Shown: piece after piece, positions 2,522 through 38,620 of the stretch
How positions within the stretch are numbered: position 1 is the first letter of the stretch
Layout of the letters: every line of letters begins with the position of its first letter
Assembly (NCBI GenBank): GCA_003602485.1
Contig: QQSD01000006.1
Coordinates: 1,873-42,148 of the forward strand
Source of the DNA: Candidatus Poseidoniales archaeon
GTDB lineage: Archaea; Thermoplasmatota; Poseidoniia; Poseidoniales; Poseidoniaceae
Reading direction: 5' to 3'
DNA length: 40,276 nt
Made by a program: the position numbers and the translations under genes
The notes under the pieces: model-generated
What the model was told of the DNA's origin: nothing
Databases searched by the model: none
Seen by the model: only the letters and a program-made list of their open reading frames with translations

Positions 2522-5500
2522 TCAGCCTTGTCGCTTGAGCCATTCATGACCGTAATGTTGCCATTGTTCAGCCGTCCAACCTGAAGGTAACCCACCGGGT
2601 GGAAGAGGAGGTCCAGCCTGCACTATCGGCTGACTCGGGAGAGGTTGTGGCAGAGCAGGTAGAGGTTTTGCAACAGGAGGCATGCCTGCTGGTGGGAGAC
2701 CCATTGGAAGTGGAGCGGAAGTGCCCCCACGCGGAGGCATACCTGCTGGAGGTAAGCCTGCTGGGACTTGATTCGGCAATGCTGGAAGATCCATTGATTG
2801 CATGATAGCTTGCGCGATTTCATCGTCGCTTACTTCTCCGCTGGTCAAATCGTCAACTGCGTCACCCAAATCAAGGGCACTGTTACGACGTTCATTGAGA
2901 AGGTCGGGACTCACATGTGTATTTGGGGCTACCAATTCCAACCCGTCGTCACCCACTTCACCCGACTTTTTCATTCGTCGACCGATCACAATCAGTCCGA
3001 TGAGAATCACAGCGATAAGGCCACCACTCACTGCTGGGGGAAGGATGCTAAACAGGCCTCCATCACCGGTAGCAGTTTCTACACTTACATCAAGGATTTG
3101 GGATGCGACAAGAGTCTCCCCGACCGTGATATTGAGGTGCAATTGTGCAGTTGTCCGACTGACAGACTCAGAGGGCATCAGCGTGACAATAACATCTACT
3201 GACTCACCGACTGCCAAATCGGTAATGCTAGCAGTGCTTAGGTCAACACTCCAATCATCTCGAATCATGTCATCTTTGTCCAACGCAACACCAGTGAGGG
3301 CTGCATTCAACGGAATATTACCGTCGTTTCGGACAACGAAGGTGAGGGAACGACCGTCTTGACGGGAAATGCCGCGCAGAGGTTGTTCACTCTCTGTTTG
3401 AACGGTGATGTTGGCGTAGGATGATTCTACAACTGCGATGGTGATCATTTGGCTTGATTCTACAAGTCTTCCAGCATTTGACCCTGTTACAGCGATGAGG
3501 ATTTCAAATGCATTTTCGGATTCTTGCTCTTGCGCAGGTGGAATCAGGCCAAAGCGGACAAGTTTTTCTTCACGAGGTTCGAGGTAGAGCGTCGGGTTGG
3601 CAAAACCCACTTGCCATCCATCAAGTGCCAATCCATGAGTCCAATTGAGGGCTAGGTCGGTATTTCCAGTATTCTTTACAACGAATTCACCGTAAGAATA
3701 AACGTCACCGATTGATACTTCAATGATTGATTCTGAAGGCGGTGTGAGGTTAATTCCCAATTCATCACGAACAATCAACGTGGTGATGTTTTGGATGAAG
3801 TTTTGATTGGAACGCTCCGTTCGTATGGTATAGGTATTCGAATCGCCTTCTTCAGCCGTGATTGGAACTGCCAAGACCAATTCAACCGTTGTGGTCATAC
3901 CGGGATTGAGAGAAATCATGACCTTACGTGAGTCTTTTTGGGTGTCATAACGAACCTCCATGGCCCATTGAGGATTATCGGGTAGAACCGATACTTCCAA
4001 TTCTACTGCGATGTTTCCAGTATTTTCCACTGATACATTGAGATGGACTTGTTGCCCACTGTCAACAGAGAGATCGTCTGCGAGTTGTGAAGGGCCAAGT
4101 GGGCCGTCATCATCAAGGAGGTCAACGTTGAAAGATTCCTGGGGCAAGACCTCAATGCTCACTGTTTCTGTGAAATTCATCGTGGGATCGGTAAATGAGG
4201 TGACGTAACACGTGACCTGGTCCGTATCACCCGCAGCAGGTACGCCATTTGCAACAAGAGGCACAATAATGCGGATGGACATCGGCAAAAACTCAAGGAT
4301 ATTGAGCGGCTCAAAGTCAAGTTGGGAGGAATTTGAACCACCGAGCATCAATTGCCATCGCTGTTCAGAAGTACATTCAATACTGTATTGTGCCGGTGCA
4401 TTCCCAGTATTTCGTACCGAGATTGAAAAGAAGCTCGAACCACCGGGTTGTGCCGACAATCCATTGCTTCCAGCCGTGACCACCTGGACTTGGTCTATTT
4501 GCTCAACGATGATTGTGACACGCTGAGTATGTGAGACTGTGGGTTGGAATTCATAGCGTGCTGTGAGTTCAACGACATAGGTGCCTGCACGGACAAAGCG
4601 AGGGTTTTCAGGATTTGAAGTGAGGTCTGCATCCAAATCTTCAAGCCGCAAATTGATCGTTTTGTTGGCATCGTCTGTACCCTGTGCTGTTAGAATAAAA
4701 TTCGGCGTCTCATCGAAATTTCTTGACCAAAGGTCGTCGCTAGGCAAAAAGAAATCATCACGGCCTGGTGCCGGGATTTGAACGGTGGTTGAAGATAGCA
4801 ACACTGACTGATTCCCGGTACCTTCGTGCAGAACGACAAGGGGAAGGTCAATGCCCGAATCATTACGGACATCCAAATTCACGACCGCATTGTTGGAACG
4901 CTCTTCCGCAGTCTCAGGAACTGTTCCATCACTGTTCGCAATAACCACTCGAACACCGAGGGCGGTAACTTCCACATCTTGCTCCCAAATATTGTTGTCC
5001 GTCCCACTTGTTGCGTCGTTCATTTCGGGGACTTGATTCCCAGTATCGATAGCCAAGCGAAGCGAATGAATGCCAGTTGAAGTGAATTGATGGAAGATGG
5101 TATAGGAATCAATCATACCAGGCTCGAGAGCTGACCGAGTCGATGTTGCCAATGTTTGTTGTGTCGTCGTGTCTTCCAAAATGATGTCGAAATCGCCCGA
5201 TATACTCGTTCCTTGGTTCACCCAAGCAAGGCGAATCGAGATGAGGTCGTTCTTGAGAGGATTGAACGAAGAAGTGAGGATACTGCCGTCAAACACAGCC
5301 AAATCCGCTTGCGGTGTTGGGGTGGCGACTGCTGCCATTACAAGTCCAAAGTTTTGCGTGGTTCCGCCACGATGGAGGACTTGCACAATCCATTGTCCTT
5401 GAGAAGATGTGAGGGTCCCTGGTGCGATTCGGATTCGTTCAACATTGTTGGTGTCATCAGCCGAACCGCCTGTTACCGAGAAGCCTTGCGAGAATTGGTT

Positions 5501-7486
5501 GCCTAACCACTCCGTGCCCGACGGGTCAATTAGAATCAAATCAAGGTCATTGACCAATCGCTTTTGGTTATTCGGGGCATTCGCACTCCCTGCTTCATCC
5601 GTCCATGCAAGCGTGATATCAATCCCGTGAGACGGGTCGAGTGAAAAGGAATAGAGCAATCCAAATCCTGATTCAAGCGGTTTATTATCGTCAAAGAAGG
5701 TGTCCAAAGACGTCGTGCCGTCCATTGGCATGACGGTCCTCTCAAGGTCAACTTGACCCCAACCTTCGAGATTGTTAGGGATATCTGGTGTGCCCAAGTC
5801 GGTTGCCCCGTTGATCATGGCTGCTTTGACCAAGGCACTGGATGGCGAACTCACACCTGCCTGCTCACGAATAAATTCACGAGTAAGCGCAGCCACACCG
5901 GAAGCGACTGCTGTTGCTTGCGATGTTCCTGACAAGGACATGTAGTAGGCGTTACCTCCTGCGTGCGCCCCCGAGAGGCAATCGGGGCCTGCTGGGTTTT
6001 GAGCTTCTTCAGCCAATCCCGAACATATTCCAACTCCGGGCGCGACGAGGTCCGGTTTAATCCGGCCATCAAGGCTCGGTCCTTGGGATGAAAAATTTGC
6101 CACAGCTCCCGCCAGTGCAGAACCAGAGGACCCAGTCGTTGATGCCCCAATCGCTATGACATTCTTCGCTGTTCCCGGAGAAGTGACTTGAGAGGCACCA
6201 AATGCCCCACGGTCACCGACTGAAAAGAGCGGAGTCAAATCCTGACGGTCATTGACGAACACATCAACCGAACGTGCGTCTGCAGTGTACTGACCGTAAT
6301 TTCCATTCAGGCCCCACGCATTGACAGCGATACGTGCCGTCATTTGTTCAGCATCTCTGAGGAGGTCGTAGATTGACCCAACTCGTCCGAAGACACCAGT
6401 TGGGTCGTGCTCGAGAGAGTACATGACAAGATTTGCACTGGGCGCTATTCCACGAGCAGATGTGTCGCCTGAACCATCTCCGAGAACGGTCACTGCGATG
6501 TGAGTGCCGTGCCCCGCATTGCTATCGGCAGGTGATGAATCCAGCCCGAACTGAGTGTATGTCGCTGCAACACGCCCTGTTAAATCCGGGTGATTTTGGT
6601 CCAAACCCGTATCAGCAATCGCAATCATCTCACCTGAACCATCGAGAGTGAATGCTGCATTGTCTTGAACTCCTTGAACCCCTGAAAGCGACCAGGCTAC
6701 TGCGTTGTGCACTCGCAATTCCATTGCTGGCTCGCTCCAGATAATGCGGCCATCATGAGCGATGTTACGAATGAATTCGACATGAGATTGGGATGTAATC
6801 AACGACTGGCAACTCCAAGAATCGCACCATGCTTCCAAGGCACCGTAACGAACGAGGTCGGTCGCTAAATCTCCATAGCCTCCAAGTCCCAAATCATCTG
6901 AAGGAATCATTGAGACATACTGCTGTTCACCTGAGAAGGTTAAGAGTTCGGGGGCGAGACGCCATCCGGGCTCTTGATGGCCAGCCCAGCGAACCCGACT
7001 GTCTTCGTTGAGCGATTGAACCATCGATGTAGGCGAGACTGGAAGACGGACGAGCCAACCTTCGTCATGGAGTGTATCGAGTACTCGCAGGTCGTATTCG
7101 GTAACGAGGTCTGAAAGGACCTGTCCGTTTGGGTTGTGAAGTTGAACGATGGCTAATCCAGTATATGCTGCGTCATTTGAACGATGCAAACTCGGAGCAA
7201 CATCGGGCCCGTTTGTGAGCGTAGGGTCAAAACTACCCGCAGCCAAATGAAGAATTCCAGATGCATCTTTCAAATCGACTGATATCATACTTGCTTGTGG
7301 CATTTCACCCCAATGCTCTGCGGCCAATTTCAATTGCTCTTCGTCTGAAAGAGACGGTACGTCCATCACATCGCTTTGCTGTGGTGACTCGAGATGAACG
7401 GTAGATGCCGTGGAATTAATGGCCTGAGAGAGCGGCGTCAAAACGAAGAGAAGGAGTACGAACAGAAGGGTAACCCGTGAACGCAT
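2522..7486 (-). CDS. Membrane-anchored subtilisin-like (S8) protease with CARDB-type repeats and Trp-rich cytoplasmic tail
   Basis: About 1654 residues from the ATG at 7486. That start has a GGAGGT site (7496-7501) nine bases upstream and gives a clean signal peptide; the longer open frame would run into the GAPDH gene. After a prodomain-like region, the S8 domain (about 285-600) carries Asp292 (AIADTGLD), His326 (GHGTH) and Ser522 (SGTSQAT). The position expected to hold the oxyanion Asn is Asp425 (FSVGDRG). A CARDB-like domain with further CARDB/NEW3-like beta domains follows. A transmembrane helix near 1480-1503 precedes a cytoplasmic tail rich in Pro that ends in GLPSGWTAEQWQHYG. The predicted topology is an extracellular protease with a small cytoplasmic tail. 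The role is probably extracellular protein degradation; substrates are unknown. Confidence 0.9.
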   Translation of the reverse strand: MRSRVTLLFVLLLFVLTPLSQAINSTASTVHLESPQQSDVMDVPSLSDEEQLKLAAEHWGEMPQASMISVDLKDASGILHLAAGSFDPTLTNGPDVAPSLHRSNDAAYTGLAIVQLHNPNGQVLSDLVTEYDLRVLDTLHDEGWLVRLPVSPTSMVQSLNEDSRVRWAGHQEPGWRLAPELLTFSGEQQYVSMIPSDDLGLGGYGDLATDLVRYGALEAWCDSWSCQSLITSQSHVEFIRNIAHDGRIIWSEPAMELRVHNAVAWSLSGVQGVQDNAAFTLDGSGEMIAIADTGLDQNHPDLTGRVAATYTQFGLDSSPADSNAGHGTHIAVTVLGDGSGDTSARGIAPSANLVMYSLEHDPTGVFGRVGSIYDLLRDAEQMTARIAVNAWGLNGNYGQYTADARSVDVFVNDRQDLTPLFSVGDRGAFGASQVTSPGTAKNVIAIGASTTGSSGSALAGAVANFSSQGPSLDGRIKPDLVAPGVGICSGLAEEAQNPAGPDCLSGAHAGGNAYYMSLSGTSQATAVASGVAALTREFIREQAGVSSPSSALVKAAMINGATDLGTPDIPNNLEGWGQVDLERTVMPMDGTTSLDTFFDDNKPLESGFGLLYSFSLDPSHGIDITLAWTDEAGSANAPNNQKRLVNDLDLILIDPSGTEWLGNQFSQGFSVTGGSADDTNNVERIRIAPGTLTSSQGQWIVQVLHRGGTTQNFGLVMAAVATPTPQADLAVFDGSILTSSFNPLKNDLISIRLAWVNQGTSISGDFDIILEDTTTQQTLATSTRSALEPGMIDSYTIFHQFTSTGIHSLRLAIDTGNQVPEMNDATSGTDNNIWEQDVEVTALGVRVVIANSDGTVPETAEERSNNAVVNLDVRNDSGIDLPLVVLHEGTGNQSVLLSSTTVQIPAPGRDDFFLPSDDLWSRNFDETPNFILTAQGTDDANKTINLRLEDLDADLTSNPENPRFVRAGTYVVELTARYEFQPTVSHTQRVTIIVEQIDQVQVVTAGSNGLSAQPGGSSFFSISVRNTGNAPAQYSIECTSEQRWQLMLGGSNSSQLDFEPLNILEFLPMSIRIIVPLVANGVPAAGDTDQVTCYVTSFTDPTMNFTETVSIEVLPQESFNVDLLDDDGPLGPSQLADDLSVDSGQQVHLNVSVENTGNIAVELEVSVLPDNPQWAMEVRYDTQKDSRKVMISLNPGMTTTVELVLAVPITAEEGDSNTYTIRTERSNQNFIQNITTLIVRDELGINLTPPSESIIEVSIGDVYSYGEFVVKNTGNTDLALNWTHGLALDGWQVGFANPTLYLEPREEKLVRFGLIPPAQEQESENAFEILIAVTGSNAGRLVESSQMITIAVVESSYANITVQTESEQPLRGISRQDGRSLTFVVRNDGNIPLNAALTGVALDKDDMIRDDWSVDLSTASITDLAVGESVDVIVTLMPSESVSRTTAQLHLNITVGETLVASQILDVSVETATGDGGLFSILPPAVSGGLIAVILIGLIVIGRRMKKSGEVGDDGLELVAPNTHVSPDLLNERRNSALDLGDAVDDLTSGEVSDDEIAQAIMQSMDLPALPNQVPAGLPPAGMPPRGGTSAPLPMGLPPAGMPPVAKPLPALPQPLPSQPIVQAGPPLPPGGLPSGWTAEQWQHYGHEWLKRQG

Positions 7487-7495
7487 ATCACTGGG

Positions 7496-7501
7496 ACCTC
7501 C
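7496..7501 (-). promoter_or_regulatory. Ribosome-binding site deciding the protease start
   Basis: On the minus strand this reads GGAGGT, nine bases before the ATG at 7486. It supports that ATG over upstream in-frame codons, which would add about 35 residues without signal-peptide character and overlap the end of the GAPDH gene. Confidence 0.6.
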
Positions 7502-7533
7502 ACCCCGCTTTTGAATACACCTCATCGGTGTGC

Positions 7534-8571
7534 TTACAATCCGTTGTAGGCGAAAATTGCTGCATCGGTTTTTTCCACCGAAACTCTCCAATCAGACTCG
7601 GTTCCGGTCAACGCCCTGATAGCGTCAACATTTTCGGGAATGACATCTGATTCTTGATGGATCGCTTGGAAGTAATAGAGCGTATTTCCGTCAAGTTTTA
7701 CACCATCCTCCCATACAAAAATCTCGTGGAGGTCGCCCCATTTCCGACCGATGTCACGAGCATATTCCATGACTTCTGCAGTCGTGGTGATGTTCGTTTC
7801 TTTTCCGTTCATGATGATGATGCGAGGTTGCTTGGACCAAAGGTCAAGAACGCTTTGGGTGTTCAATCCATGCCCTTCAGGCAGTGTCGCCACGATGGAG
7901 TGGCAGTGCATGAGAGTGGTGGGTACAGCGACCGCCATTGAATTGATGTCAATCTCTGGTTTTACCGTCATCACGTCTGGGCCGTGGTGCGAAGGTACCT
8001 TGAGGACTGGCTTGATTGCATTGATTGGACCCTTGGCTGAATCACCCGGGTCTGCAGCACGTCGAATCATGGTACATTCAACCTTGAGGGACCCACAGTG
8101 TTCATAGAGTGGAACAAGTGTTCGTGAAAGGCCCGTTGTATTGCATGACACGACGCGAGTCCCTGCTGCATTCATGTTTTCTTCATGATTGGCTGAAGAC
8201 GTATATGACATGCCAGCCATTGCATGCTTTTCACCGCCTTGGAAGATGTACTTCACTCCAGCGTTGACGTAAGTTTCTTTGTTGGCAGCACCCACTTTGC
8301 CTGGAGAACAATCTACGACAATATCGGCTATGGCAAGTAGGTCACTCAAGCCACCGTGACACGTATACCCTGCATCAGCAAAAGCGGCGATTCGGTCCGC
8401 GTCGTCAAAGGTGCAATACAACGGAAATCCCTTGCGGACGGCCAAGTCGCAGCCGAATGACGGACGCGTTTTAGTCACACCGATGATTTCCATGTCGTCC
8501 TGAGCATCGACCGCGTCGGCCACTCTCTTTCCGATTGTTCCATATCCGTTGATGGCGACTTTGATGCTCAT
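7534..8571 (-). CDS. gap: Type II (archaeal) glyceraldehyde-3-phosphate dehydrogenase
   Basis: This 345-residue enzyme oxidises glyceraldehyde-3-phosphate to 1,3-bisphosphoglycerate with NAD(P)+, or runs in reverse for gluconeogenesis. The Rossmann motif INGYGTIGKRVADA is at residues 7-20. The nucleophile Cys143 lies in VSCNTTGLSR, typical of the archaeal type II family, and the length is typical too. The ATG at 8571 was chosen because MSIKVAINGYG is the usual N-terminus and a purine-rich GGAGAGGG precedes it. An ATG at 8583 would add four residues. The gene diverges from the GltB-like fusion and is followed 47 bases later by the protease. Confidence 0.95.
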   Translation of the reverse strand: MSIKVAINGYGTIGKRVADAVDAQDDMEIIGVTKTRPSFGCDLAVRKGFPLYCTFDDADRIAAFADAGYTCHGGLSDLLAIADIVVDCSPGKVGAANKETYVNAGVKYIFQGGEKHAMAGMSYTSSANHEENMNAAGTRVVSCNTTGLSRTLVPLYEHCGSLKVECTMIRRAADPGDSAKGPINAIKPVLKVPSHHGPDVMTVKPEIDINSMAVAVPTTLMHCHSIVATLPEGHGLNTQSVLDLWSKQPRIIIMNGKETNITTTAEVMEYARDIGRKWGDLHEIFVWEDGVKLDGNTLYYFQAIHQESDVIPENVDAIRALTGTESDWRVSVEKTDAAIFAYNGL

Positions 8572-12749: not shown

Positions 12750-13123
12750 GTTCCATCACCTGATTTGGTGTGGGGAGTTGGCTCAAATTCTCCGTTTTCT
12801 TTGCGCTTGTAATGATAGCCGTCGGTGTGATGGACCCAGGAAAATTGAGGTGCGTCTTCAACCAATTTAGGCTCGGGTGTTGAATGGTCTGACTGACTCG
12901 AAGTAGCACCGTCATATCGAACAGATTGGTCTGTAGCCGCTTCAACCGTTGAAGAGCCATCTCCAAACAAAGCTAGAGCGTCTTTGTAGGCACTCGAATC
13001 AACCTCAGTTTGTGGTGGACGAGCATTTGGGTCCTCACCTTTCTTGTATACGATTGCAGCAGGAGGGGCTTCGTCAACCTGTGCTATTGGTTCCTTTTTC
13101 TTGAAAGGCCAAATTGGTGCCAT
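12731..13123 (-). CDS. Small conserved-looking protein of unknown function
   Basis: A 130-residue protein that I do not recognise. The preferred ATG at 13123 gives MAPIWPFKKKEP, a short Trp/Lys segment that could touch a membrane or partner. The middle (about 30-90) is low-complexity, rich in Ser, Thr, Asp, Glu and Pro, and probably disordered. The C-terminus is the most structured part, with FSWVHHTDGYHYKRKENGEF, a compact aromatic and charged block of a kind often conserved. It diverges from the surface protein at 13218 and converges with the SRAP gene, overlapping it by 19 bases. Reality is supported by filling the gap between two well-defined genes and by this non-random C-terminus. Confidence 0.6.
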   Translation of the reverse strand: MAPIWPFKKKEPIAQVDEAPPAAIVYKKGEDPNARPPQTEVDSSAYKDALALFGDGSSTVEAATDQSVRYDGATSSQSDHSTPEPKLVEDAPQFSWVHHTDGYHYKRKENGEFEPTPHTKSGDGTYTPYS

Positions 13124-13217
13124 GGCAGTGCCACGGTGCATCTCTTCAAGAAACCTACGAATCGGGAACATGCAAAAGGGAGTTCACTTCAAATCCAAGT
13201 CCTTGCACCCTATTCTC

Positions 13218-15608
13218 ATGCGAAGCATTGGACTCATCCTCTTGATGGTCCTGCCATTGCTTTGTCCGCCTTCAATTGCAGAAATGGCAAGCCAGGGAAG
13301 AGACCAAGAAACAATGGGAGTTACTGCGCAAGAGAACGTCATTGTCCACCAGAATGAAACTGTAAGTGCGTACATCACCCTGCATAACAAAGCATCAATA
13401 AATCAGGAATTTACCATCTCGCCTCTTTCGTTTCCAGCCATGCTTTCCCCAGTGAATTTACCACTCACTGAAACGCTTGTTCCGAACCACCTCAACCAAT
13501 TTGTATTTGGCATCAAATCAACGACAACTGCGAGTTTTGCAACCTATCAAATCCAACTTTCCATCACCTCTGACTTCGACGCTGAAATAAACCATACCGT
13601 CACCATGAATGTCACTGTAGTGCCGTACTCGGACCTCAATTTTGGAGTTGATGGAGTCACGGCGTTAACAGTTGATGAAAACGTCCGCACCTCTGTCGCA
13701 GTCAATTTATCCAATAATGGCACCTATCCCGACAACGTCACGTACTCATTGTACACGCAGTCGAACTGGAACTGGGGCTGGATTATGGAGAACCAACAGG
13801 GAGGTAATGCATACACTGTTTTGTCCCCCGGCACCCTCGTCTATGTCTATCTCTGGGTTGATATCCCTGCAGTTGAGAACGGGATGCCCTTGTTACAAAC
13901 TGGGCCGAGATTTACGCTGACGGCAACGTCAAGTTTGGACGGTGCGACGACATCCTGGAGTTTTGATTTGTTAATGAACGAAAAGAAAAATGCAACCATC
14001 GATGATGTGGAGGGGGACATCACGTTAGCTCCCGATGAAGATGGACGCATTGATGTCGTTGTTCGCAATGTTGGAAACTCACCTAATACACTCAATATTT
14101 CACTTCAAGGCGTGGATGCGGCAGGTAATCCCTTGCCGGACCTTCAGCCAGCTGATCGGTTCAATGTGAGTGGCTGGACGGTGGCTCTCTTTGGAGGCCT
14201 CGAAGATGTTGAACTCCTCCCTAACGAATCGAGAACGATTCAAATCGGCATTCAGTCCCCAAATACATTCTCAGGTGACATCTCTGTTCAGGTCCTTGTC
14301 TTTGCAGATGGAGCCATGCTCAACACACGAAGCGCTCAGGTAAATGCAACCATCCAACGAATATCAGCAGGCAATCTCACCTACAGCCAGACTGGTTGTG
14401 ATGCAATTCTGCCAAATCAGTCTTGTGACGCCTCAGTAGAAGTGAGCAACACGGGCAATTCATACAACTCCTACGCTCTTCGAACAGGGGCGGTTACCGA
14501 TGGATTCACAGTTGTATTACCCTCTGATGTATTGCTTGTTCAACCTTCACAAACCAAGACGTACCCGCGCTTGCAAATCTTTGCGGAAGAGCAAGCAACC
14601 GCATTCCTCCTTGGTTCAGCAACCATCGAATTACTCGACGATAGCGGAATGGTTGTGAACTCAGTAGAAATTCCCCTCAAAGTAGCCCCCGAGATCAAAT
14701 GGACCTTCCGAAATGTCGAAGAACAAGTTAACGCAAAAGGTCGCTTATCGATTGCAATGGAGGTTCGTAACGACGGCAACGCAGTTGACGGCTTGCTCGT
14801 TCAACTTCAATCAAGTCATTCAACTCCTATGGGATTCATCCCTCCCGATTCCGCAATTTATGAGGACGGTGTTGAATTTCCACGTTCCTTTGAAATCAAT
14901 GATATACCACTGGGAGCGAACTTTACCATTCGGGCTTGGGTAGAGCTACCTCAAGACCAAAACACCAACGGAACCGTCTTCATCAACACATCAATTCGTT
15001 CCCGCTTTGCCCCGGAACTTCCATTTGTTCATACTTCAGAAGGGGAATACCTCGGCATGACATGGCAGCCTTCTGAAGAAGTTGATGAAGGATTCAATTG
15101 GTCTTCAGCCTTTGAGACTACACTCGCTTATGTCAAGGCATGGGCCTTTGTCGTGATGTCTGTCATGGTTGCGGGAGTCATCATCTACAAGGCCGTCATT
15201 GACCGTGAGCGCCGCATGAACGAAGAGGCAATTCTCCCCTACCAACAAATAAGTGGAGACGCTCATGATTGGATTGAGAAATTTCGAGGGAATGATTCTA
15301 ACTCCGCCCAACCTACGTCATCGGCAACATCTGTACTCACAGGCAATACGTATGAAAATGTAGAGCAAATGCAAGTTCAAAACGCTCCAAGTCCTCGCGC
15401 CCCGCCGATTGAACCTCGCCTCGTCGAAGCAGCCTCACTCATTCTCGGAAGAGGCATTGAGGAGCAACGTGAAGAACTCAAGCCATCCCAAAACACCAAC
15501 CAAGCTCAAGCCAGCGTACCCCTTCCTTTGCCGCAACCTAAGCAGGAGGTTGTCCAATCAACAGAAGCCTCTTCGCAACAAGGCCAACCTGACGACCTTG
15601 AATTTTGA
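13218..15608 (+). CDS. Single-pass surface protein with NEW3/CARDB-like beta domains
   Basis: About 796 residues from the ATG at 13218, which begins directly with a signal peptide (MRSIGLILLMVLPLLCPPS); an ATG at 13170 would add 16 residues. The mature part is a series of beta-sandwich segments with repeated phrases such as NNGTYPDN, NVGNSPNT, NTGNSYNSY and NDGNAVDG, the signature of NEW3/CARDB-type adhesive or spacer domains. Asn-x-Ser/Thr sequons are frequent. One transmembrane helix lies near 638-657. The cytoplasmic tail of about 135 residues is polar and rich in Pro, Gln and Ser. It lacks the Trp-rich motif found in the other large proteins here. It overlaps the RNase HII region at its end. 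Function is unknown; a cell-envelope role is inferred. Confidence 0.8.
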   Translation: MRSIGLILLMVLPLLCPPSIAEMASQGRDQETMGVTAQENVIVHQNETVSAYITLHNKASINQEFTISPLSFPAMLSPVNLPLTETLVPNHLNQFVFGIKSTTTASFATYQIQLSITSDFDAEINHTVTMNVTVVPYSDLNFGVDGVTALTVDENVRTSVAVNLSNNGTYPDNVTYSLYTQSNWNWGWIMENQQGGNAYTVLSPGTLVYVYLWVDIPAVENGMPLLQTGPRFTLTATSSLDGATTSWSFDLLMNEKKNATIDDVEGDITLAPDEDGRIDVVVRNVGNSPNTLNISLQGVDAAGNPLPDLQPADRFNVSGWTVALFGGLEDVELLPNESRTIQIGIQSPNTFSGDISVQVLVFADGAMLNTRSAQVNATIQRISAGNLTYSQTGCDAILPNQSCDASVEVSNTGNSYNSYALRTGAVTDGFTVVLPSDVLLVQPSQTKTYPRLQIFAEEQATAFLLGSATIELLDDSGMVVNSVEIPLKVAPEIKWTFRNVEEQVNAKGRLSIAMEVRNDGNAVDGLLVQLQSSHSTPMGFIPPDSAIYEDGVEFPRSFEINDIPLGANFTIRAWVELPQDQNTNGTVFINTSIRSRFAPELPFVHTSEGEYLGMTWQPSEEVDEGFNWSSAFETTLAYVKAWAFVVMSVMVAGVIIYKAVIDRERRMNEEAILPYQQISGDAHDWIEKFRGNDSNSAQPTSSATSVLTGNTYENVEQMQVQNAPSPRAPPIEPRLVEAASLILGRGIEEQREELKPSQNTNQAQASVPLPLPQPKQEVVQSTEASSQQGQPDDLEF

Positions 15609-33124: not shown

Positions 33125-33131
33125 TCACCTC
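33125..33131 (-). promoter_or_regulatory. Strong ribosome-binding site deciding a TTG start
   Basis: Minus-strand GAGGTGA four bases before TTG at 33120, overlapping the TGA stop of the 1807-residue protein gene. It makes the TTG the most likely start and indicates translational coupling. Confidence 0.55.
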
Positions 33132-36100
33132 ACTTCTTTGAGAGAGCATCTATGTATTGCCAACCATAGGATTTCCATTGGTCCTCTGTCCATCCATCTG
33201 GTAGTCCAGTAGGCGGGAGTGGAGGTGGTGATGAACGGTCCATTGCGGGTGCTGCGGCTGGCGCAGGTGGAGCAACTGGAGCCGCCGGTATCATGTTTGG
33301 TGGCGGGGGCTGTGAAGGCGATGCGATGGTCGGCAGCACCTTTTGATCGGCCATTTCCTGAACGACTTCATCGGTCTGGTCTGCTGCTTCCTCCTCGGTT
33401 TCTGGAGCCAACATCCGACGTCGTAGCACGAGTGCGTACATTCCGAAAGAGAGAGACGTGAGGGCGATAACGAACAAGGTCACACTGAAGATATCATCTG
33501 AAAGCTGCTGTGAGAGGGCTTCTCCATCTCGTATCGTTTCTTCCTTGATCAGGAGTGACTCAACACTTTGTCGGTCCATTTCAACACCGTCTACAAGGAC
33601 AAGTACACGATATTCAATCGCAGTTCCCTGTTGGGCATCGGCTGCCACAGGAAGGAAAGCGCTGAACGTCTGTCCCGATGTGACCTGAACACCTACCAGT
33701 GAACTCGTTGACCAGTAACCACCTTCAACAAGTTCCTGGAGGGCGAACTCAACCATGCCGTTGCCACCAAGGTTGGTAGCAGACACAACCATCGTTGCTG
33801 TTTCACCAGAATAGGGACTTGGATTATCCCACTGAAGTTTCGTGGCCTCATCTTGGAGGTTGACGCTTGGTCCGAGGAGTGCCAACGGCCATGATGCAAA
33901 GGGTTCCATCATCGAATTTGATGCCGTGTCGTACGGATTACCTGCCTCATCGGAACCAGAAACCCATACGTCAACTGTGTAGGAAGGCAACAGTGTCGTA
34001 GCACCCGCATCTGTCAAATCTAATTGACCGCTCCAGATAAATTCTGAACCGAAGGATATGACGTCGGGAAGGAGAATACTACCTCGTGAGATTTCTGCTT
34101 CACCTGCTTTTACACGGTAGTGCAGCACAGAATCTTCATCGAAATTGAATCCATTCTCATCGTTGGTGATGAGGCGGACTTCAAGGAGGTCAGCCTGACC
34201 GATCGAGAGAGGCAAGCCATCTGCTACACCGTTGAGTGCAATTCCACCAATGGTAGGCCGTACACTGTCGACAGCAAGGCGGACACGTGGTGCAAAGGAG
34301 GTTTCGTCCACGGCAAGGCCCGGAAGGTCGTCCATGCTCAACCGCAGGTCAAGACGTCCCGAGCGGACAGAAGGAACGAGAAGGTCGAGACTGAACTCGC
34401 CATCTTCACGGGTTGAAGTGCGCCAGTTGTTTTCAAAATCTCCAAACACAACGTCAAATGCTCCAGGTGGTGCTGGAGTTTCATCTTCTGAGAAGAGCAC
34501 ACGGCCTGAGACACGAAGGGCTTGACCTGCTCCGATGATCGTCTCGAAGTTCTCTGGATTGTAGTGATTCTCACTGTTTCGGAGTTCAATGGCACGTATG
34601 TGGCCCGCCTCTGTATCGAAGCGGAAGTCATTGTCCAAACTCCACAAGTCGTCACCTAAGCCTTCTGTTACCTCGAAACATGGGACCACTTCACCTTCAT
34701 TGCAAGGCATGTCGGTGACACGGATACGTGGGATGAAATGTGATTCACCATCGGTATCAAAGGATTCAGGGAACATCCAGGTCAATTGGAACCGTGCCTG
34801 TATGATGATGACAGTTTCATCATTCTCTTCAACTTCAACTGTTGAATAGAGATTTGAAACAGCGATGTAGTTGGAACCGGTTTCGATGGTAGCCACTGGC
34901 TGACCATCAACGCCTTCTTCAAGCGTGATGAACATGGATGATTCATCATCATCAAGGTCGCCACCAAAGGCAACTTGCACGTACTGAATGTCTTGCCAGC
35001 CATTACGGTCACTCAATTTAATTTGGGCAGTGTATGGGATTCCCGGGTGCATGGGCTCGTAGTCGTCGTGGCCGATGATGGAGGAATTGCCAAGGTCCAC
35101 AAGGGGTTCGAATTCCTGCCGAATGAAGTATGTCACCAAATCAGCGTCCCAATCGGGCAATACTTCACCGGGGCGTGTGCCACAGGTGATGGAACTTTGA
35201 GGACATACGGGTCCTTGGCCCATAGCAATCTGATTATTTTGCTCATCCTCTCCAGTCACGTAGAAAGAAACACGTTGCTTGTGAAGGAGCATTGAGTCGT
35301 CGATAAGGCCTTCAAAAATATTCAAGCCTCCCGTTCGAGTTTCGGGAGAGGAGAGTGTCAGAAGTTCATATTCGTCTTCATTAGGCAGACCGTCGAAATT
35401 GTAATCGTTGCATCCAATGGCTTCACTTGCACGGCAACCGACCCAATAGTGAAGGCTGATTTGTTTGGGTGGGTCAACTGAATCTTGAACCACAATCGAC
35501 ACTGCTTGACCTACACCAGATGCTCCTGCATGGCGTTCTTCACCATCACTTGGTGTTGCACTCAGAACGAGCGGAGAATTACCGTCGAGGATAAGGCGTA
35601 GCGAATTGTAATTGGGGTTGGTATAGGTTGAACCGTTTTTCAAATCCACTGCTTGAACATAGAAGATCATACCACCCGGTTCTGATTCAATAGGTGAAGT
35701 AAAGGTCATGTTGTACTCTCCGAAAGCAGGGTTGACTTCTTGATAGAGCACCATTGGCTCCCCCATTGGGTCCCCGTCATAGGTGACATTTTGGCCAATG
35801 ACACGGAGTGAGAAACTACCTGCTGGAGGCATCAATTGTGAATCTTGGAAGTGTATTTTACCGGTGAAACTGAGATTGAACCCACCGCGTACCCAATCCA
35901 TAGGATACAGTTGCCGACCCGTTTCTTCCCAAACTTGCAGGCCATCGAGTTGGATGTCGTTTTCAACTGCCAAATCCATTGTGGTGGTGTCCCACTGGCT
36001 GACGGCTACACCCAAGTCGTCTTCGACAGAGATAATCGCTTCCGTCGAAGCTTCATCGTTCCAACTCCAATTGACCGATGTGGGCATCCAAATTGAGACT

Positions 36101-38553
36101 ACACCACTCGCGTCGACCGTGGAGGTACAATTAGGGGCATCGAACATCACGATTTCCCCAACATTATTATTGACGCTGCAGGCATCGCCTTGTTCCCATG
36201 TAAAGGTTGGATTTTCGCCGTACGAGTGGTTGATAGCAATAACTGCCTTTGTTACCCTGTCAACATCGTCTCCGGGTGCGACACGGGTGATGAAATTACG
36301 ATAGATACCGTCAGGCGTAGCCAATCCACCCTCAAAGGATGCATCAACAGCGCGGGTTTGCATGGCGTAGGTAATGTCGATATTGGAGATCTTAACACGT
36401 CCAGATGAAGCTGCCTTGACACCAATTGGTATGTCCAGCCATCCTTCGCCGTTCTCTGGGATGAAATCGTTGAAGGCATCAACCAGCGTTGGTGCTTTCT
36501 TCACGATGTCACCAACGACTGAGTCGTCTGATGCAACAACTGAAGATTCGTTGAGGAAGATATCCGATTCCCAATCATAATCACCATCACCGCCGATATC
36601 GAGCATTGGACGGTCAGGATATCCTTCCTCGTATTCGAGGATGAATTCGTCGATGCTTGGTGTGAGAGATGGATCTGTGGTGCTAAAGGAAATTCCGTAC
36701 TTCAGCGTATTACCAGCCGCTTCTGTTGAGAAACTGGTTTCAGCATTATTAGCTGCTTGAATCCAAACCGAGCCGTTATCATTTGAAACGGTGACCTGAA
36801 GCGTTGTGCCCGCAGGAACATCCGCAGTCCACTGAGGGCGTACTTTCCCGACTTTCGTCCCCGTGTTGAAGTGAGGAGATTCCCACTGCCCTGAGGCAGT
36901 GTAGGCAGTAGCATATTCCATGTCAACCCACCACGATACGGCCGTTGAACCGATGAGTTGGGCCTTCCAGACCAATTCCTTACCGGGATAGTCGAAATGA
37001 ATGGTTTGATTTGATTCAACTTCTTCCCAATGTGTGCCGTTATCTGCTGAAACCCAGTAGTCGACGCGGTCACCAATGGAAGCTGCTGACCAATACGTCT
37101 GGACGTTTACAGCCAATACATCGTCTCCGGATTCAACAACATCTCCGTACCACGTGGTCGTGCCGGGAGCGGGTGTGGTCTCATAGAGCCAACTCGTTCC
37201 AAATTCACGATAATAAAGCGTGGTGCTCGACCATGTTGAGTATCCGCTGTCTACGGTTACAAACCGGTCTCCGTCAAACTGAAGGCCGTAACCAAGACGA
37301 GAGACTTGGCGCACTTCAGTCTCGGGGATGAGAGCCGTTGATGAACCCGAGATGGACCAGGCTTCAAGTTGATCTCGGTCGTTGTAATAAGCGTCCTTTT
37401 GACAGCGCATAAAGAAGGTCGTACTGTTCATCTCAAGCCCACGAAGCATCTGCTTCTGGTTGCTGAAGGTGCCTCCACATTCCCACTTGGAACTGGATGA
37501 TGAGGAGTAGGTATAATATTCAGAACTGCGGGTATAGGTTGAGGTCCCATCACCAGAGAAATCGTAACCATAGAGACGATTCATTGCGTTGTGAGCAACC
37601 CAAACCTGACCAGTTTCCCGGTCGTAAGCAATACCGGTATATTCACCAACAGACGGTGAGATATCATAGGAGTCAATACAGGTCCACGTATCGTCCCTTG
37701 AGATATCCATCTCCATCACACGGTGATAATTAACGGGTGCAGATGAGCCATAGGTGTAACGATATCCAGAAAGGATTCCAAAGAGGCGTTCATCATCGGT
37801 GATGGTCCAATCCCTGAATCCGTAATAGCCGTAGTATGACGACGAATGCTTCTGTGGGAGAGTACATTGTGCTTGGTCAAGCGTGATGATTGATTCCCGA
37901 GTCGCATTGTTGGGGTAAAGCCTGTGAACAACGTTGTGGAAGGTTGAGGAGGACCATGTGGATAAGAAGAGCCAATCATGGTGCTTGAGGACCGCTCCTT
38001 GACTTTGCGCATTGAAACTCGCCGATGTTTTTGTCAACTGCTGAGAAAAGAGGCTTTCAGTGGCATTGGAGGTGTGCGGTTGTCGCAATGCATAGGACCC
38101 GTTGTCCAACCATGCATCTGAGTTCGAGTTAACGTAAGCGTCATCACCGTGAGGAAGGAAGTTACGGCTGCGGTTATCCAGCGCCAGCGTGAGATCCCCT
38201 GAACGGTCATCAACATTGGTTTCTTCTCCTCGAATCCAATGTACTCGGTCATCTGCAACGACTTGTGACCACCCAGTAGCAGATGCGCCTGAAAGAGTCA
38301 TGCTCACGTCGGTGACCAGTGCACCTTTCGGAAGAGTAACCTTGGCTCCAAGGTCTGGGTTCGCACCCTGATAGAGGGCTATGTATTCGTTCGAACCGTC
38401 GTGAAATTCGTACACGTGGCGGGTGCCAACGGCGGCTTCTGCATCAGATGTGAACAATTCGGCCATTGGGCTCAAAGGCGTGAAGAGCATCAAGCCAACT
38501 AAGAGCAAGAACACACCGTAGGATGACCGAGAATGCTGACCGCGCCCTTGCAT
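33130..38553 (-). CDS. Giant surface protein (about 1807 residues) with Trp-rich cytoplasmic tail
   Basis: The ATG at 38553 leads into a signal peptide (GVFLLLVGLMLFTPLSP). The ectodomain is a long series of beta domains. The start has a VTLPKGALVTDVSMTLSG strand pattern. Residues about 165-450 look like a beta-propeller-type region (GIAYDRETGQVWVAH). Later parts contain repeated beta-sandwich units with low cysteine content. One transmembrane helix near 1686-1709 is followed by an acidic, then Pro/Ala-rich linker. The tail ends in GLPDGWTEDQWKSYGWQY, matching the tail of the subtilase at 2522-7486. It sits between the partial calcium-repeat gene and the small helical gene. It may bind or present extracellular polymers, which is inference. 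Confidence 0.85.
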   Translation of the reverse strand: MQGRGQHSRSSYGVFLLLVGLMLFTPLSPMAELFTSDAEAAVGTRHVYEFHDGSNEYIALYQGANPDLGAKVTLPKGALVTDVSMTLSGASATGWSQVVADDRVHWIRGEETNVDDRSGDLTLALDNRSRNFLPHGDDAYVNSNSDAWLDNGSYALRQPHTSNATESLFSQQLTKTSASFNAQSQGAVLKHHDWLFLSTWSSSTFHNVVHRLYPNNATRESIITLDQAQCTLPQKHSSSYYGYYGFRDWTITDDERLFGILSGYRYTYGSSAPVNYHRVMEMDISRDDTWTCIDSYDISPSVGEYTGIAYDRETGQVWVAHNAMNRLYGYDFSGDGTSTYTRSSEYYTYSSSSSSKWECGGTFSNQKQMLRGLEMNSTTFFMRCQKDAYYNDRDQLEAWSISGSSTALIPETEVRQVSRLGYGLQFDGDRFVTVDSGYSTWSSTTLYYREFGTSWLYETTPAPGTTTWYGDVVESGDDVLAVNVQTYWSAASIGDRVDYWVSADNGTHWEEVESNQTIHFDYPGKELVWKAQLIGSTAVSWWVDMEYATAYTASGQWESPHFNTGTKVGKVRPQWTADVPAGTTLQVTVSNDNGSVWIQAANNAETSFSTEAAGNTLKYGISFSTTDPSLTPSIDEFILEYEEGYPDRPMLDIGGDGDYDWESDIFLNESSVVASDDSVVGDIVKKAPTLVDAFNDFIPENGEGWLDIPIGVKAASSGRVKISNIDITYAMQTRAVDASFEGGLATPDGIYRNFITRVAPGDDVDRVTKAVIAINHSYGENPTFTWEQGDACSVNNNVGEIVMFDAPNCTSTVDASGVVSIWMPTSVNWSWNDEASTEAIISVEDDLGVAVSQWDTTTMDLAVENDIQLDGLQVWEETGRQLYPMDWVRGGFNLSFTGKIHFQDSQLMPPAGSFSLRVIGQNVTYDGDPMGEPMVLYQEVNPAFGEYNMTFTSPIESEPGGMIFYVQAVDLKNGSTYTNPNYNSLRLILDGNSPLVLSATPSDGEERHAGASGVGQAVSIVVQDSVDPPKQISLHYWVGCRASEAIGCNDYNFDGLPNEDEYELLTLSSPETRTGGLNIFEGLIDDSMLLHKQRVSFYVTGEDEQNNQIAMGQGPVCPQSSITCGTRPGEVLPDWDADLVTYFIRQEFEPLVDLGNSSIIGHDDYEPMHPGIPYTAQIKLSDRNGWQDIQYVQVAFGGDLDDDESSMFITLEEGVDGQPVATIETGSNYIAVSNLYSTVEVEENDETVIIIQARFQLTWMFPESFDTDGESHFIPRIRVTDMPCNEGEVVPCFEVTEGLGDDLWSLDNDFRFDTEAGHIRAIELRNSENHYNPENFETIIGAGQALRVSGRVLFSEDETPAPPGAFDVVFGDFENNWRTSTREDGEFSLDLLVPSVRSGRLDLRLSMDDLPGLAVDETSFAPRVRLAVDSVRPTIGGIALNGVADGLPLSIGQADLLEVRLITNDENGFNFDEDSVLHYRVKAGEAEISRGSILLPDVISFGSEFIWSGQLDLTDAGATTLLPSYTVDVWVSGSDEAGNPYDTASNSMMEPFASWPLALLGPSVNLQDEATKLQWDNPSPYSGETATMVVSATNLGGNGMVEFALQELVEGGYWSTSSLVGVQVTSGQTFSAFLPVAADAQQGTAIEYRVLVLVDGVEMDRQSVESLLIKEETIRDGEALSQQLSDDIFSVTLFVIALTSLSFGMYALVLRRRMLAPETEEEAADQTDEVVQEMADQKVLPTIASPSQPPPPNMIPAAPVAPPAPAAAPAMDRSSPPPLPPTGLPDGWTEDQWKSYGWQYIDALSKK

Positions 38554-38620
38554 AGCATGCACACATCCGACATACACTTTGAACCATGCGGTCAAAGGTC
38601 AGTCGTTCTGACCTCAGAAA

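Follow-up and report, generated by a model that had tools for sequence, protein, structure and literature searches.

The stretch of DNA analysed here (the window, 40,276 nucleotides from a Candidatus Poseidoniales archaeon) encodes two large surface proteins, both on the minus strand, which hold the same type of tryptophan-rich C-terminus. The first one is a subtilase-type protein (2522..7591, with a likely ATG start at 7486, as read from translation, Pfam and a transmembrane scan), composed of an S8 domain, CARDB/Ig-like repeats, one C-terminal membrane helix and a terminal module referred to here as the GW tail. The assignment of the Peptidase_S8 domain is firm (Pfam, E=9e-42). Hydropathy places a N-terminal signal-type hydrophobic segment at residues 40-58 (7418..7474, minus strand) and the single C-terminal membrane helix at residues 1519-1537 (2981..3037, minus strand), followed on the inner side by the sequence GRRMKK. 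A cytoplasmic linker of ~123 residues, acidic and then Pro-rich (2612..2980, minus strand), leads to the GW tail module PPLPPGGLPSGWTAEQWQHYGHEWLKRQG, which comprises the last 29 residues before the stop (2525..2611, minus strand) and where AlphaFold predicts a helix over residues 30-44 of a 45-mer.

The second surface protein (33130..38595, minus strand) occupies an ORF of 1821 codons and has 1807 residues when counted from an ATG within it; no confident known domain was detected in it by Pfam and NCBIfam scans. Its layout is the same, with a N-terminal signal-type hydrophobic segment (38461..38517), a single C-terminal membrane helix (33427..33483) followed by RRR on the inside, a cytoplasmic linker of ~67 residues, acidic and then Pro/Ala-rich (33226..33426), and the GW tail module PPLPPTGLPDGWTEDQWKSYGWQYIDALSKK as the last 31 residues before the stop (33133..33225), with an AlphaFold helix at residues 28-44 of a 45-mer, all of them on the minus strand. 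The C-terminal consensus common to both proteins is PPLPPxGLPxGWTxxQWxxYGxx[WY][LI]. A preliminary description of the window had claimed one Trp-rich tail on two proteins with a single membrane helix each, and both points are borne out by the minus-strand translations and by hydropathy.

Two further proteins of this contig end differently. At 12990-15608 (plus strand), the window holds an 872-aa ORF with a signal-type segment and a C-terminal membrane helix that ends in QPDDLEF. Ends of this type, and the LLDDLD[FL] ends of a PKD family considered below, are the sole two kinds with such an ending among 917 unique ORF ends scanned, all of them in membrane proteins, and could possibly represent a second C-terminal docking peptide. 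About 11 kb past the right end of the window, a 1483-aa Ig-like surface protein (L024:11611-16062, minus strand) holds another Trp-rich cytoplasmic end, HPGWLWDQTTNQWVPDPNYQPEQ, directly before its stop.

The genome to which the window belongs (1.78 Mb, 80% complete, 97 contigs) encodes eight tails of this type, compared to the two noted previously. A degenerate DNA pattern for the motif matches the same eight places, while its reversed control matches none, and the tail is thus not a chance occurrence. Each of the eight copies belongs to a long ORF and is preceded by a membrane helix and then by a cytoplasmic linker, Pro-rich in most cases, and true matches are clearly separated from noise in the scan of relatives.

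Three further proteins of this genome hold related tails, for which class names have been coined here: class A for the single module, class C for a tandem form and class B for a two-helix form. The tandem form IPEGWSLEQYRTWIEGPCPEGWGEEQWSTYV ends a protein of 1773 residues (L211), and the two-helix forms VPGWTEDMVKQYLLQGWTMDQLAIYYQE and FPQWTQEEIQGYFDQGWNVESLHDWVNNQ are found in proteins of 1629 (L212) and 1994 residues (L254), respectively. A genome assembled as a single contig of 2.06 Mb (G035) encodes 11 class A, one class C and two class B proteins. The three versions resemble one another at the profile level, with hhalign probabilities of 97.4% for A-C, 93.9% for B-C and, weakly, 68.7% for A-B, values that are somewhat inflated by small alignments whose members were found by similarity. 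The three classes would therefore form one superfamily of cytoplasmic GW modules, which we infer to be mutually replaceable. Further variation is seen in the protein at L327:1-747, whose cytoplasmic tail contains two near-identical extended two-helix GW units (VDDWLSSAREQLPDWPxDTLLxYRExGWSxxxLVAYRDE). In proteins of two ectodomain clusters (L017, L090, L094, L098, L102 and L111), an ANSMYGGxxxxF sequence lies between the membrane helix and the GW module and constitutes another shared cytoplasmic element.

The proteins that bear these tails differ widely in their extracellular portions. Comparison of 44 full tail proteins from several genomes yields 10 ectodomain clusters without mutual match, so that the earlier claim of unrelated ectodomains now extends to at least 10 unrelated families. 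They include a subtilase, PKD proteins encoded by a tandem gene pair, CARDB/NEW3 proteins, beta-propeller-like proteins with thrombospondin-type-3-like repeats, NHL/thrombospondin type 3 proteins, arylsulfotransferases with thrombospondin type 3 repeats, and several families without a Pfam domain, together with an additional family of 380-406 residues with a CxxxCH-type motif. Among 98 motif ORFs from 80 independently fetched loci, 94 have a membrane helix at most 220 residues upstream of the motif; one of the remaining four is cut by a contig edge inside the helix, and the motif is internal in the other three. The tail is thus confined to membrane proteins in the whole set examined. A signal-type segment scores above threshold in 75 of 85 closed motif ORFs, and the ten below it include the three internal-motif proteins, two ORFs that start in masked sequence, and several with a weaker but evident hydrophobic N-terminus.

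Most of these proteins are very large (800-2200 residues), and in most of them only 9-20 residues separate the core motif from the C-terminus. Both features would suit a biogenesis or quality-control tag, in which an insertion factor, a chaperone or a membrane protease reads the tail on very large membrane proteins. This explanation is considered unlikely, because the family of 380-406 residues bears the tail too, copies on the N-terminal side of the helix and internal copies exist, and the same genome encodes other single-pass surface proteins devoid of it. The latter, found by a hydropathy scan in the stretches read of the window's genome, indicate that the GW tail marks a subset of the surface proteins. 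In the PKD family, the GW module is followed by 30-70 extra residues, which end in LLDDLD[FL].

The preliminary description had placed the tail in the cytoplasm, and this location holds in the enlarged set, where topology was called throughout from hydropathy and charge: a positive-inside charge distribution is observed in 109 of 115 tail proteins, with an average of 3.28 K/R after the membrane helix vs. 0.30 before it. The module lies 44-157 residues past the membrane helix, on the inner side, usually after a linker of ~67 residues. The three internal copies, the only departure from a C-terminal position among the 98 ORFs, all belong to a protein of 793-903 residues with a N-terminal SAP domain (E=8e-12). 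In this protein, the SAP domain is followed by the GW module PDIPEDGLPEGWTVEQWAHYG, also preceded by a Pro-x-x-Pro element, then by ~80 residues, a single membrane helix and a Cys-containing C-terminal part. Due to the lack of a signal segment and the presence of the SAP domain, this protein is predicted to have a reversed topology, which would leave its GW module on the cytoplasmic side, as expected for a docking motif that occupies this side whatever the terminus. Internal occurrence, which had been proposed as a potential refutation together with an equally frequent presence in cytosolic proteins, is therefore confined to the cytoplasmic side of a membrane protein. Membrane proteins with a cytoplasmic SAP domain and a GW module are encoded at L163, L179, L206 and L298, and in the first three loci a ParA-type ATPase gene directly follows; such a pair might act as a membrane tether for DNA.

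A C-terminal sequence common to many secreted proteins also calls to mind sortase- or archaeosortase-type sorting and processing signals; the preliminary description had read the tail as a docking or sorting signal for one shared receptor. Like the GW tail, the CTERM signals (PGF-CTERM, PEF-CTERM and GlyGly-CTERM) are single C-terminal sequences found on many unrelated secreted proteins within one lineage. However, the CTERM motif lies just before the C-terminal helix, with a short basic end after it, and the protein is cut or anchored outside, whereas the GW module is located after the helix, far inside the cell. NCBIfam contains CTERM models, and none of them matches the tails. This topology already disfavours a sortase-type signal, and the N-side copy in the SAP family, together with the residues that follow the module in the PKD family, argues for a cytoplasmic module rather than for C-terminal processing; such a signal is regarded as highly improbable.

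Of the genomes sampled, only those of Poseidoniales have the GW module. A profile built from the eight tails, run on 293 genomes, detects it in 82 of 82 Poseidoniales and in none of 211 other Thermoplasmatota, which include six genomes of a sister family within the class. Class A copies number 1 to 12 per genome (5-12 for the window's family, 1-7 for the sister family of the order), and class B modules are present in 53 of the 82 Poseidoniales vs. none of the 211 others. The best 80 matches among 84,980 prokaryote species all correspond to Poseidoniales/Marine Group II-type MAGs, a scope that would leave room for rare GW tails elsewhere. Two viral contigs that matched the motif contain a chance internal IPDGWTPEQW in a phage portal-type-looking protein, and a viral origin was discarded. 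Based in part on the two-family split described for Poseidoniales (PMC6461757), the window's family (f1) and the sister family (f2) probably correspond to Poseidoniaceae and Thalassarchaeaceae, respectively.

The module is better conserved than its surroundings, as would be expected for a docking motif on unrelated ectodomains. Among 115 proteins, tails from one ectodomain family are ~75% identical and those from unrelated families 67%, figures inflated by the retrieval of many loci through tail similarity, while within the same families the identity is 35-63% for the ectodomain and 23-46% for the linker. Near-invariance extends to several positions that the search pattern leaves free: Pro at -3 (99%), Tyr at +13 (98%), Gly at +14 (100%) and an aromatic residue at +17 (100%). 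A search that starts from the ectodomain provides an unbiased check of tail retention: with the second window protein as the query, of 29 orthologs whose 3' end is readable, 28 have the tail and the 29th has it in another frame, these orthologs being the best-scoring matches, all from the window's own family. The ortholog at L366 is tail-less at first sight, and, since another reading frame encodes an intact tail, the loss is probably due to a frameshift. Where copies of one genome share a residue whose codon is free to vary synonymously, the codons differ in 67% of cases. This divergence rules out a recent DNA duplication of the tail, and the copies are therefore old and have been kept alike by selection at the protein level.

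Orthologs of the second window protein from the sister family have no class A tail; the corresponding cytoplasmic place is taken by the two-helix module GWTDEMLIAQGWTQWQVDTWRAQQ or close variants of it. The cytoplasmic tails of most of these orthologs (L370-L377) also contain EF-hand-like DxDGNxYL segments, often beside the two-helix module, and such segments suggest, from sequence, a calcium input.

The possibility that the tail is part of a known ordinary domain, raised previously as a potential refutation, finds no match in Pfam, NCBIfam or the PDB. The closest resemblance is to SHOCT (PF09851), another module of ~30 residues often found at protein ends, which shares a Gly-x-Thr-capped helix followed by acidic residues and an aromatic one at equal spacing. 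Nevertheless, no SHOCT domain appears among the tails in a Pfam scan at E<=10, a PF09851 search at E<=0.01 finds no match in the window's genome despite its eight tails, and hhalign comparison with 16 SHOCT sequences gives probabilities of only 0.1-2.4%. The module also starts with LPxGW, like WW domains, and its best PDB match, at E=0.91 and not a sequence relative, corresponds to the first nine residues of an Itch WW domain. This likeness stops at the Trp, however, since the GW tail has no second half; WW domains hold two Trp ~20-22 residues apart in a three-stranded sheet, while AlphaFold predicts a turn and a helix with no strand for the GW tail, and no WW match was obtained in Pfam. A Foldseek search of the PDB with the tail model gave no useful fold match. 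The motif was not found in print in the literature searched, where papers on Marine Group II mention no such tail under C-terminal, surface or adhesion topics. The GW module thus represents a small domain family that neither Pfam nor NCBIfam includes.

AlphaFold models of each window tail with 22-45 relatives are free of strands and contain a helix that starts around the T of GWT and extends almost to the end. The pLDDT is 86-91 for the helix and the GLPxGW turn and lower upstream, and the pTM is only 0.47-0.50. The confident turn-helix and the lower pLDDT upstream suggest a small folded unit on a flexible tether. The helix is only moderately amphipathic, with a mean moment of 0.44 that 8% of shuffles attain. 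A Trp/Tyr-rich amphipathic helix could also fold back onto the inner leaflet and keep the linker at the membrane, an interpretation held to be very unlikely. Acidic lipids are usual in archaea, and 113 of 115 tails have a zero or negative net charge (mean -2.76), the linkers averaging -7.2, so that lipid binding is disfavoured; in addition, the near-invariant Gln and Gly and the GLPxGW turn would be unneeded for this purpose.

The tail is most likely a tethered docking peptide for a putative shared cytoplasmic partner. The signal-type N-terminus and the single membrane helix would leave a large ectodomain outside the cell, and ~20-140 flexible, acidic, Pro-rich residues would serve as a tether. 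At its end, a Pro-Pro-hydrophobic-Pro element and the GLPxGW turn are predicted to precede a N-capped amphipathic helix (T/S-x-E/D-Q-W-x-x-Y-G-x-x-W/Y-L) that would expose a W, Y, W face for binding. The presence of this element on unrelated ectodomains would plug all of them into one common cytoplasmic partner, by which giant adhesion and protease molecules may be clustered, positioned or mechanically anchored. The invariant aromatic face, the adjacent Gly, the long tether, the independence of topology and the tandem copies all fit a docking peptide. The tails of eukaryotic NPxY-type receptors, which carry short linear docking motifs in the cytoplasm, offer a parallel in that unrelated ectodomains are joined through a flexible tether to one short conserved cytoplasmic element. 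They differ in sequence, organism and, presumably, partner, and the GW module seemingly folds as a small unit and can also be found in tandem. On these grounds, a lineage-specific cytoplasmic docking module that connects unrelated ectodomains to one shared partner is favoured, although with a confidence only somewhat above even.

The genetic neighborhoods of the tail genes are conserved inside each family and different between families, with the exception of a ParA-type ATPase (AAA_31), which is encoded in the vicinity of the propeller/thrombospondin tail gene in genomes of the window's family and, in the sister family, on the same strand as the SAP-GW gene and directly downstream of it. In both families, the propeller gene is immediately preceded, on the same strand, by the gene for an 840-residue soluble coiled-coil protein (L020:181-2703, plus strand) with no Pfam domain. 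This protein family is specific to Poseidoniales (74 of 82 genomes vs. 0 of 211 other Thermoplasmatota), and nearly every genome of the window's family encodes its long form, as do some of those in the sister family. The suggestion that one soluble family co-occurs with the tail is thus met in most genomes, but not universally, since several tail-bearing genomes of the sister family lack the long form, which discards it as a universal partner. For this reason, and because very many genes are order-specific, the coiled-coil protein is only a candidate partner, co-occurrence being weak evidence. A search for the archaella-related PF04659 gave no match in any Poseidoniales genome, while controls matched.

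Neighbour-gene and co-occurrence searches have thus found no dedicated receptor, as would also be the case if the tail were its own receptor. The aromatic face could equally self-associate, with helices paired through their W/Y/W faces and surface proteins co-assembled in patches. The face is identical on all clients and tandem copies would raise the valency; however, net-negative tails would repel each other unless the face buries well, and the class B modules found in orthologs differ strongly from class A, while a self-pairing interface would be less tolerant of such changes. Homotypic clustering is consequently regarded as rather doubtful.

Returning to the docking module, a tentative extension, to be taken as a possibility of modest weight, is that Poseidoniales have an inside-out linkage in which a dedicated cytoplasmic scaffold, perhaps the coiled-coil protein, possibly together with the neighbouring ParA-type ATPase, would recognise GW modules and organise or position giant adhesins and proteases. 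Poseidoniales (Marine Group II) rank with the most abundant archaea in surface ocean waters and have no cultured representatives (PMC6461757). The literature searched contains no description of how their surface proteins are organised. In this context, the GW module groups up to ~14 surface proteins per genome as one set, and, as a near-invariant cytoplasmic element present across the lineage, it provides a concrete bait for the internal partner.
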